IMG/VR virus record: IMGVR_UViG_3300044632_001529
Span: 1 to 23,566 of that record
Length of the DNA: 23,566 nt
DNA from: a virus
Strand: one strand, 5' to 3'
A program made the position numbers and the translations under genes. The notes beneath the pieces are model-generated. The model saw only the letters and a list, made by a program, of their open reading frames with translations, was not told the DNA's origin and ran no database searches. Below, in pieces: positions 3,538-18,996 of this stretch (positions are counted from its first letter, which is position 1; each line of letters opens with the position of its first letter).

Positions 3538-4529
3538 ACAAATCTCAAATGTGAGATTTAAAACGGGGAAACGTTCTTTGAAAATACCTAAATACCCCCT
3601 TTGAAGTATATAGGTAATATTAATTATCCGTTCAGTAGTTGATTATGAGACCTTCGGGTTGATTATGAGACATTTAATCTGATAAACGATAATGGGCCGT
3701 GTATGGTCCTTAAATAAACTACGAAAGTAGGATAAAGTGGTCTCCCCTGTGTTGAGGAGACTGCGGTTTGAAACCCCGTAAGGGGAATTGAACTCAAGTA
3801 CACAAGTGGGATATCATCAAACCTTTAGTACCGAGGATAACTTCGTAGGGAAAATGGTAGGGTGACTTGGGAAAGTAGATTCTCAAGTTGAGTTCGGAAG
3901 AACAATAAGAATAACCCATAGGAACTCTGTAAGAAATGTGACCATCCAGTTACACTATTGCGGGTCCCAATATAATAGAGGACTTAAAACCGAAAGGTAA
4001 GATAGAGAACGAGTGGTGTCGCTACTATCCCTAAGGAATACCTACCAAGGTATCTTTATGAAGTAATCTTGAAATATGGAGGTGGGGACACTTCACGGAG
4101 TAGTTTAGTATTCTGTCGCTCAAAAGGAGACGGAGCTTACGGTGGACCACTACTCTGACACATCTACTACACAAACCTAACATTATTACAAAATAACTAA
4201 GGAAAAGTGTCCATCAGGTTTAGGTGAAAGGTCACTACATAGTAATGAGACGTTCATTGCACAGAAAGACCCCAAGTCTAACTGTAGTTTTACGAAAAAC
4301 CTTTAGTCCCGCAAGGACGAACTGGGACGGCAGTCTCGGAAAGAGTTGAGTAAGAAGAGAGTAACTTAAACCTCAAGGAGTGGTAAACCTAAAAGACCGT
4401 GACTGAGAAATACTTCTCAAAAGGAAGTGGATACGAAGGGAAACAATAATCCTTCAAAAGGTTCTCACATAAAGCTATAATCTCAGGCTATATTAACTTA
4501 TCTGACCTGTCGTTCTGACGGGTTTTTTT
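3538..4529 (+). ncRNA. Giant structured RNA (~990 nt), class not identified
   Basis: No ORF of meaningful length lies on either strand, yet base composition changes sharply from the AT-rich genes and the stretch is full of hairpins with stable loops. Examples: ACC-UUCG-GGU; GGGCC/GGTCC; CTAC-GAAA-GTAG; GTCTCC/GGAGAC (6 bp); CCCC-GTAA-GGGG; TGTGAC/GTTACA; ACC-GAAA-GGT; GATACC/GGTATC; GTGA/TCAC; GTCC/GGAC; ACTTC/GAAGT. A long-range 8-bp helix pairs GAACTCAA (3790-3797) with TTGAGTTC (3888-3895), enclosing other hairpins. A 14-nt direct repeat (3638-3651 and 3658-3671) flanks the UUCG hairpin. CCTAAG and TATGG, the two strands of the 11-nt tetraloop receptor, occur about 45 nt apart near 4030-4080, although their flanks do not pair well. 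It begins at strong promoters and ends at an intrinsic terminator. By size, phage setting and tRNA company it resembles the GOLLD and ROOL groups of ornate RNAs, but I cannot align it to either. Confidence 0.8.
4505..4529 (+). terminator. Terminator of the giant RNA
   Basis: ACCTGTC/GACGGGT stem (7 bp, one G-U), 5-nt loop GTTCT, then seven T. It marks the 3' end of the ~1-kb RNA. Confidence 0.85.
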
Positions 4530-9526: not shown

Positions 9527-9892
9527 ATGAGCAAAAAAAACAAAAAACAAAACAGTGAGTTGATTGAGAAATTAAATGAAATCCAATCACAATTAAATGA
9601 AGTTAAATCAGATGCAGGTATCGTAGTTGAAGAAGCGGATATCGTTTTCACACGAGAACAACTTGAAAACTTCTTGGTTGAATACACCAACAAAATTAAT
9701 GAGTACATCTTTGATGAAATGATTAATTCATTAGATGCTAATGATGTGGTAACATTTGACGTAGATGGTCGTGAAATTGTACCAAGTATTGACGAAGATG
9801 TTTTGAGAGACGCATTCGTAAGTGCTACAGAAGGTGTTGAAAACGATATTATTATGGAATATGCTGACGAAGCAATTTCCGAAGTAATCTAA
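9527..9892 (+). CDS. Unknown acidic helical protein, 121 aa
   Basis: Starts MSKKNKKQNSELIEKLNEIQ, a basic tip followed by a coiled-coil-like helix (ELIEKLNEIQSQLNEVKSD). The remainder is strongly acidic and helical, ending DIIMEYADEAISEVI. No known domain; a small oligomeric scaffold or adaptor is possible but unsupported. It sits 424 nt upstream of clpP, with a structured RNA between, on one likely transcript. Confidence 0.8.
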   Translation: MSKKNKKQNSELIEKLNEIQSQLNEVKSDAGIVVEEADIVFTREQLENFLVEYTNKINEYIFDEMINSLDANDVVTFDVDGREIVPSIDEDVLRDAFVSATEGVENDIIMEYADEAISEVI

Positions 9893-10316
9893 TTTGTAAA
9901 GAAGACCCCACAATACCGATTTATCTGCGGTTGGACAGTGTGAACATGGCGGGAAGGCTCCAAGGCTATGGGGGAGGCTACACAAACTTGAATCAGATAC
10001 CCCAATTATGGATGGAAGGGGTTAGGGACCTTAAATGGTTGTAATACAATCCACAAGTTGTAGAAAGACTGGACAATTCTACAATATACACTCTTCTTAC
10101 GAGTGAGACCGACCATGTAACTTTGGGGGTAGGGTTAAGATGTCCTGAGGGTAACCCTGTAATATGGGTGAGAGTAGAGGTCTTCGGTGGATGGTTACTA
10201 CGGTCCCACTCTCTTGGGGCATATCCGAAGAAATACTATGGATGGTAAATACTACAAACCAAAGGTCGTCTCGTGAAATACCACACGGACAGAGAAGACG
10301 ACCTTTACCTTTTTAA
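9893..10316 (+). ncRNA. Structured RNA (~420 nt) upstream of clpP
   Basis: No ORF; G-rich compared with the neighbouring genes; dense in perfect helices. They include ACCCC/GGGGT (near 10000-10022), TTGTAGAA (10058-10065)/TTCTACAA (10077-10084), CACTC/GAGTG near 10090-10105, AGGGTTA (10131-10137)/TAACCCT (10152-10158), GAGAGT (10170-10175)/ACTCTC (10208-10213), TCTTCGG (10181-10187)/CCGAAGA (10225-10231), and a final 11-bp stem (10261-10271/10296-10306). The GAGAGT and TCTTCGG helices interleave, so they form a pseudoknot or are alternatives. I see no promoter of its own; it may be processed from the transcript of 9488, or act as a long leader of clpP. It is not tmRNA, RNase P or 6S RNA as far as I can tell. 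Confidence 0.75.
10261..10316 (+). terminator. 11-bp stem and T tract just before clpP
   Basis: AAAGGTCGTCT pairs perfectly with AGACGACCTTT around a loop that itself contains CGTG/CACG, then ACC and five T. It could terminate the upstream RNA or gate read-through into clpP, whose ATG is 3 nt further on. Confidence 0.6.
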
Positions 10317-10318
10317 AA

Positions 10319-11047
10319 ATGAATATGAATTACGGAAAAGAGTTTAGAAAGTATGCTATGAGTGAGGGGATTTCCTCGTTGAATTTGGATAGATTTGAAA
10401 ATGCTTTAACACCTTATGTGTTAGAGGAAAGAGAATTAAGAGCGACTCAGATTGATATCTTCTCACGATTAATGAGAGAAAGAATTTTGTGGGTATCGGG
10501 AGCGGTTAACCAACATATGTCAGATATTGTTCAGGCTCAGTTGTTATTTTTGGACTCGGTTGAACAACGTGATATTACATTATACATTAACTCACCTGGT
10601 GGTTCGGTTCTTTGTGGACTAGGAATTGTTGATTTGATGAACTATATTAAGTCAGATGTTGCAACAACAAATATTGGAATGTGTGCGTCTATGGGGTCGG
10701 TCTTACTATCATCAGGTACCAAAGGTAAAAGGTCATCTCTAGTGTATTCAAAAGTAATGACACATCAGGTAAGTCACGGAACCGAAGGAAATGTTCAGGA
10801 CACAAGAATTAATCAAATGGAGGCTGAGAAATATAACTACATTTTGTTTAAGATGATTGCCGAGAATTGTGGTAAAACGGTTGAGGAAGTGTTGGAGGTT
10901 TCAAGAAGAGACAAATGGTTCAACTCGGATGAGGCAAAAGAGTTTGGTTTGATTGATGAGGTAATTAAGAGTGAGGGAACCAAAACAATTTCTGAGATGT
11001 TAGTAGGTTTTGATGACTACTACAACAAGGAAGTTTTTAATAGATAA
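10319..11047 (+). CDS. clpP: ClpP-type serine protease
   Basis: 242 aa. Catalytic Ser124 (GMCASMGS), His149 (KVMTHQVSHG) and Asp198 (RRDKWF) have the same spacing (25 and 49 residues) as Ser97, His122 and Asp171 of E. coli ClpP. YINSPGGS at about 89-96 and EFGLIDEVI further support the family. ClpP forms a barrel that degrades proteins, usually with an AAA+ unfoldase; phage ClpP-like enzymes can also serve as prohead maturation proteases. No scaffold, portal or capsid gene is adjacent, so the role is open. The N-terminus is about 25 residues longer than mature host ClpP. ATG 10325 is an alternative start. An aberrant tRNA follows 8 nt downstream. Confidence 0.93.
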   Translation: MNMNYGKEFRKYAMSEGISSLNLDRFENALTPYVLEERELRATQIDIFSRLMRERILWVSGAVNQHMSDIVQAQLLFLDSVEQRDITLYINSPGGSVLCGLGIVDLMNYIKSDVATTNIGMCASMGSVLLSSGTKGKRSSLVYSKVMTHQVSHGTEGNVQDTRINQMEAEKYNYILFKMIAENCGKTVEEVLEVSRRDKWFNSDEAKEFGLIDEVIKSEGTKTISEMLVGFDDYYNKEVFNR

Positions 11048-11055
11048 TATAAAAT

Positions 11056-11130
11056 GAAGAAGTAGCTCAGCAGGTAGAGCATAGGGACAGAAATCCCTTG
11101 TGCCGCGAGGTTCGATTCCCGCCTTCTTCA
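11056..11130 (+). tRNA. Aberrant tRNA, anticodon not assignable
   Basis: Good acceptor stem (GAAGAAG/CTTCTTC), A73 then C, and a normal D arm (GCTC/GAGC). The anticodon stem AGGGA/TCCCT leaves a 6-nt loop CAGAAA without U33 (an 8-nt loop is the alternative). The T stem GCG(A)GG/CCCGC has a bulged base. By comparison with tRNA-Phe the loop could be a GAA anticodon with one base lost. It may be defective, or made by editing or a special function. Confidence 0.7.
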
Positions 11131-11135
11131 CTCTT

Positions 11136-18907: not shown

Positions 18908-18983
18908 AGTCAGGTGGAAGAGTTGGTACTTCGCTCGGTGGGTAACTGCCGAGAGGTCATAGGTTCGAGTCCTATTCTGACTT
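18908..18983 (+). tRNA. tRNA with enlarged anticodon loop
   Basis: Acceptor AGTCAGG/TCTGACT, D arm GAAG/CTTC, T arm ATAGG/CCTAT, T73 then C. The anticodon stem CTCGG/CCGAG leaves a 10-nt loop TGGGTAACTG (8 nt if T-G pairs). GGTAA suggests a Thr (GGU) ancestor with three extra bases. Frameshift-suppressor-like or non-functional. Confidence 0.7.
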
Positions 18984-18996
18984 CAAAAAAAAAGGT

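Follow-up and report, generated by a model that had tools for sequence, protein, structure and literature searches.

A previously uncatalogued, highly structured noncoding RNA borne by large phages amid their tRNA genes

Few RNA classes are as poorly understood as the large ornate RNAs of phages, those known from phage tRNA islands being GOLLD, a homo-oligomeric RNA nanocage, and ROOL, which attains high abundance in the cell. Both are large phage RNAs encoded near tRNA islands that form RNA-only cages, and their function is still unknown; GOLLD increases in the course of lysis, and pull-downs are reported to show binding of bacterial ribosomes to it (PMC12286853). An unrelated third RNA that often lies beside GOLLD offers an independent case for comparison, and the one described here comes with a structural model that includes pseudoknots and a defined core, as well as with natural deletions and empty sites.

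The stretch of DNA analysed, hereafter called the window, is a virus record of 23,566 bases with about 19 tRNA genes. It contains a GOLLD RNA (RF02032) at 4096-4489 on the + strand (317.6 bits) and, about 5.4 kb downstream on the same strand, a region of ~420 nt that a preliminary description had taken to lack an open reading frame; indeed, none of gene size is present, the longest frame inside 9893-10316 encoding 50 aa. The results of our sequence analysis indicate that this region is very probably the gene for an autonomous, highly structured noncoding RNA, which would act as an RNA molecule and not as a leader. Its limits, first placed at 9893 and 10316, are about 9900 and 10306, and the window gives a single match, 9900-10305, to a full-length profile of the RNA. 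The RNA and its immediate neighbours are the following.

9900-10306, + strand: whole RNA gene, its 5' end near AAGACCCC, its 3' end the last hairpin plus T run 10310-10314
9527-9892, + strand: p121, a small acidic protein of 121 aa directly upstream of the RNA in the window clade (context only)
10319-11047, + strand: ClpP-family protease (Pfam CLP_protease, E 9e-56; PHROGs head maturation protease), a neighbour outside the element

The p121 protein, conserved before the RNA within a single phage clade, has no significant match in Pfam or PHROGs. (Two tRNA genes of the window, 11056-11131 and 18908-18984, have irregular anticodon loops, to which ARAGORN assigns anticodons of 2 nt [ga, in a loop that may have 8 nt, ACAGAAAT] and of 4 nt [gtaa]; they are possible frameshift-type or decoy tRNAs.)

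The noncoding RNA is previously uncatalogued and is borne by large phages amid tRNA genes. No family of Rfam 15 matches it, even in permissive scans (4227 families, E up to 5), no prior description was found in the main text of open-access papers, and three divergent queries found no match among deposited or isolated phage records, the one candidate being a 26-base chance match (E 6). Bacterial and archaeal genomes, scanned with a pattern covering the subgroup of the window, returned three matches that were judged to be due to chance because the model of domain A fails on them.

Relatives of the RNA were present in about 60 IMG/VR contigs, which we gathered via clpP, p121 and sequence patterns taken from separate parts of the RNA; pattern matches resembling a protein gene (four records) or unrelated (one record) were dropped. 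After dereplication, the comparison set comprised 47 distinct full-length RNAs of 405-537 nt, while genomic context was counted in 49 copies with both ends, among which absences are soft since many records are fragments. The length of the RNA varies by module: some copies have ~40-75 nt inserted behind domain A, and a central module (~50 nt) that the window has in short form is longer in most relatives.

Considered as a single sequence, the window RNA gives a weak signal. The many perfect helices noticed initially are present, but those of at least 5 bp (65, vs 49.9 +/- 6.7 in dinucleotide shuffles) are weakly above chance, longer ones are not clearly significant and the MFE z-score is -0.6, so that the visual evidence of the first reading was insufficient alone. 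It is the homologs that settle the structure, since their covariation is overwhelming and resolves thirteen helices together with five loop-mediated pseudoknots. The helices are listed below, with the proportion of paired cells and the pairs showing double changes in the alignments.

9906-9910/9969-9973, + strand: P1 (CCCCA/TGGGG), closing helix of domain A, invariant and hence outside the covariation test
9915-9918/9928-9931, + strand: hairpin P2, 4 of 5 pairs with double changes, loop forming PK1
9945-9949/9960-9965, + strand: hairpin P3, 98.2% of cells paired, 2 pairs with double changes
9999-10022, + strand: hairpin P4, 83.7% paired, 3 of 6 pairs with double changes
10027-10040, + strand: hairpin P5, 99.5% paired, 3 of 4 pairs with double changes
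10057-10085, + strand: hairpin P6 of 9 bp, 99.8% paired, 7 of 9 pairs with double changes
10089-10105, + strand: hairpin P7, 99.6% paired, 2 of 5 pairs with double changes
10108-10130, + strand: hairpin P8 with conserved loop GTAACTWT, 96% paired, 5 of 7 pairs with double changes
10154-10169, + strand: hairpin P9, in the variable module, short in the window and ~50 nt longer in most relatives
10181-10187/10225-10231, + strand: helix P10 (TCTTCGG/CCGAAGA), 99.7% paired, 6 of 7 pairs with double changes
10203-10220, + strand: hairpin P11, 98.9% paired, 6 of 6 pairs with double changes, 6-nt loop CTCTCT forming PK4
10261-10271/10296-10306, + strand: terminal stem P12 of 11 bp, intrinsic-terminator-like, its sequence replaced many times with pairing kept
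10272-10275/10284-10287, + strand: inner stem P13, 92.9% paired, 4 of 4 pairs with double changes

Compensatory changes are found in 12 of these 13 helices, the exception being P1, which never varies. Domain alignments were built without structural guidance and then scored against the named helices, and pairing is retained while the region varies across homologs, whichever domain is considered. In the 5' domain 97.3% of cells are paired (56% when the partners are slid) and 6 of 15 pairs show double changes; the corresponding values for the middle domain are 95.7% (43-44% slid) and 20 of 31 pairs, and for the 3' domain 96.5% (41-46% when partners are slid by one column) and 21 of 22 pairs. Across the three domains, slid-partner controls gave 31-56% paired cells. 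The 3' domain further contains 281 double-change cells vs 87 in shuffles, a count that derives from related sequences of one collection and is thus not made of independent events; it is safer to rely on the number of pairs with double changes and on how diverse the pair types are. Helix P10, which encloses the invariant GGTTACTA and hairpin P11, illustrates the pattern, since both of its strands are replaced in relatives, for example CCCACCG with CGGTG-GG.

An unsupervised covariation scan revealed further contacts beyond the named helices: the loops of P2, P4, P6, P11 and the last hairpin each pair with a distant strand, forming the pseudoknots PK1 to PK5.

9922-9927/9994-9999, + strand: PK1 (TATCTG/CAGATA), in relatives ATCC/GGAT, ACTC/GAGT and ACCA/TGGT, exceeding all 1000 strand swaps
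10009-10013/10049-10053, + strand: PK2 (TGGAT/ATCCA), 99.1% paired, in relatives TGGGT/ACCCA and AATGT/ACATT
10071-10074/10142-10145, + strand: PK3 (P6 loop GGAC/GTCC), 99.5% paired, in relatives GAAC/GTTC, AGAC/GTCT and GATT/AATC
10210-10214/10291-10295, + strand: PK4 (P11 loop TCTCT/AGAGA inside the last hairpin), 98.7% of cells paired
10243-10247/10279-10283, + strand: PK5 (TGGTA/TACCA, loop of the last hairpin), 5 of 5 pairs with double changes

PK4 and PK5 are the clearest of these contacts. The former is found in relatives as GAATC/GATTC, GAATT/AATTC, AAATC/GATTT, GTATC/GATAC and ACTC/GAGT, and strand swaps reach at most 77.4% of paired cells in 1000 trials; the latter is found as CGCCA/TGGCG, CACTA/TAGTG, TACCA/TGGTA, CATCA/TGATG and TGGGA/TCCCA. 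By covariation PK2 is the weakest, with few variants. The RNA is thus pseudoknotted, as had been supposed, but not in the way originally drawn. That proposal interleaved TCTTCGG/CCGAAGA, which is the conserved P10, with GAGAGT/ACTCTC (10170-10175/10208-10213); both occur in the sequence, but the second is paired in 62.8% of cells, at the level of chance given by strand swaps (mean 60.5%, maximum 62.8%), and was rejected, ACTCTC being mostly P11 loop with AGAGA at 10291-10295 as its conserved partner.

The ends of the RNA are conserved amid changing surroundings. At the 5' side, conservation starts at AAGACCCC and the sequence upstream changes abruptly across five different contexts: the 3' end of a tRNA (five copies), the motif TAnnTTTG at a distance of 16-20 nt (four copies), a 62-nt cloverleaf-like element (12 distinct sequences), p121 (13 copies) and other genes. 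We take TAnnTTTG to be the Bacteroidota promoter element. Nearly all members close at the 3' side with a covarying stem, mostly followed by T-rich sequence, and a stable stem with a 3' T run is the arrangement of intrinsic terminators; in the window the T run comes after ACC. The same limits amid unrelated surroundings argue for an independent RNA unit, as do the promoter-like element in some copies and the compensated helices, in agreement with one of the two readings initially offered.

The 5' end would then come either from a TAnnTTTG-type promoter belonging to the RNA itself or from processing that trims the transcript after a preceding tRNA or tRNA-like element; a terminator hairpin would set the 3' end. 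In the window, the nearest TAnnTTTG-like sequence, TATATTTG, lies at about 9487, upstream of p121, which suggests that the RNA is probably made together with p121, either as part of its transcript or cut from it. The cloverleaf-like element of ~62 nt, which ends 2-4 nt before the RNA, has a covarying outer stem (GTAGAG...CTCTAC) and three small hairpins but no Rfam match at gathering thresholds; it may be a tRNA-like processing signal for the 5' end of the RNA.

Could the region instead serve one of its neighbours? A structured 3' UTR of p121, serving the stability or control of its mRNA, is highly unlikely: p121 does end about 10-20 nt upstream of the RNA in 13 of the 49 copies, but it was not seen there in the remaining 36, most of which follow tRNA genes, the tRNA-like element, a promoter or other genes, and p121 also occurs without the RNA. 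The latter situation is found in records L057-L063, close relatives which keep p121, tRNA-Phe, other genes and clpP, while the site of the RNA, between p121 and tRNA-Phe, is occupied by a short terminator-like hairpin (about 4330-4400).

The second reading of the preliminary description, a cis-acting leader in which the structured region and its terminator hairpin govern read-through into clpP, is more improbable still. As had been noticed, the 11-bp stem P12 and its T run stop close to clpP, namely 4 nt before the ATG at 10319, and in the window clade they could damp read-through as a side effect. However, the homologs do not always precede clpP, since the gene starts no more than 30 nt away in only 3 of 49 copies, each of them from the window's own clade, whereas a tRNA gene is present within 150 nt downstream in 22 of 49. 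Among the 14 records over 100 kb, clpP was found in seven, at a distance of about 1 kb in a single record and of 11-246 kb in the other six, and L057-L063 retain p121 and clpP without the RNA. The fixed position before the same gene that characterises cis-regulatory leaders is therefore absent from the copies compared, and this reading is already largely refuted by the contexts of the homologs.

Least credible of all is the idea that sequence models failed to recognise a divergent version of a known catalytic or housekeeping RNA, be it RNase P, tmRNA or an intron of group I or II. The size, several pseudoknots and tRNA-gene company would fit, but the permissive scans of all Rfam families, including tmRNA, RNase P and introns, were empty over the RNA, record L109 carries a recognisable tmRNA and group I intron elsewhere beside it, and the RNA showed neither a tRNA-like domain nor an exon junction nor a reading frame. 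(The tmRNA match of L109 [RF00023; 8352-8942, - strand] overlaps the group I intron match [RF00028], possibly representing an intron-containing phage tmRNA.)

The company of the autonomous RNA is rather that of tRNA genes. Besides those downstream, which in many copies lie only 5-10 nt away, a tRNA gene is found within 100 nt upstream in 11 of 49 copies, and some copies sit directly between tRNA genes. The RNA is single-copy in every one of the 14 records over 100 kb. Record L007 keeps only the 3' third (about 3613-3764), the 5' two thirds being gone, an allele suggesting that the full RNA may be dispensable. Several of the neighbouring tRNA genes are themselves unusual. In L105 (about 1195-1310), L109 (about 700-830) and L133, tRNA-like genes with paired GTCAGG/CCTGAC ends and abnormal or much enlarged interiors directly follow the RNA. 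The gene immediately before the RNA in L119 is called by ARAGORN as tRNA-Pyl; given its CUA anticodon, it may be an amber suppressor.

With regard to function, the terminator-like hairpin is itself bound into two of the pseudoknots, and loops pairing back to distant strands imply either a compact tertiary fold or contacts between copies; judging from the sequences, some loop contacts could indeed be made between molecules rather than within one. By analogy with GOLLD and ROOL, the least certain step of the proposed mechanism is that the RNA would accumulate during infection as a stable, trans-acting RNA of the tRNA and translation region. The same analogy makes a scaffold role, possibly oligomeric via loop contacts and involving neither coding nor antisense pairing, a tentative proposal that is somewhat less likely than not. 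Rather more doubtful is a wholly new class of large RNA having its own biochemical activity beside GOLLD in the infected cell, for instance a ribozyme with tRNA or ribosomes as its target, or an assembly made of RNA alone whose copies exchange the five loop contacts.

Comparison with described RNAs places the new one as follows. The freshwater-1 RNA (RF02979) is also uncharacterised and occurs in the same tRNA regions (L110, 8418-8479; L143, 6397-6459 on the - strand; L095, 996-1056, below the gathering score), but it has 62 nt and is unrelated. OLE RNA is likewise large and ornate, with a biochemical function that is not established, but it is bacterial, mostly from Gram-positive extremophiles, and the Rfam scans gave no match between it and the new RNA. 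ROOL (RF03087) shares the large size, the proximity to tRNA genes in phages and the multiple pseudoknots; its covariance model does not match the new RNA at permissive thresholds, and it was not found in 15 records carrying the new RNA by a scan whose positive control gave no signal. GOLLD is similarly a large structured phage RNA of tRNA islands, but it exceeds 800 nt and has another fold, and its covariance model of 416 positions matches the window only at 4096-4489, with nothing over 9900-10306 at E up to 5. Moreover, the two coexist in one genome: 24 of the 49 records contain GOLLD as well, so that the new RNA is separate and does not replace it, and in all 8 of the records over 100 kb that hold both RNAs, they share a strand and are separated by about 6-29 kb. 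By analogy of context and complexity, the RNA at 9900-10306 would be a third large phage RNA of the GOLLD and ROOL kind, and we file it as a new family of that kind, a member of neither.
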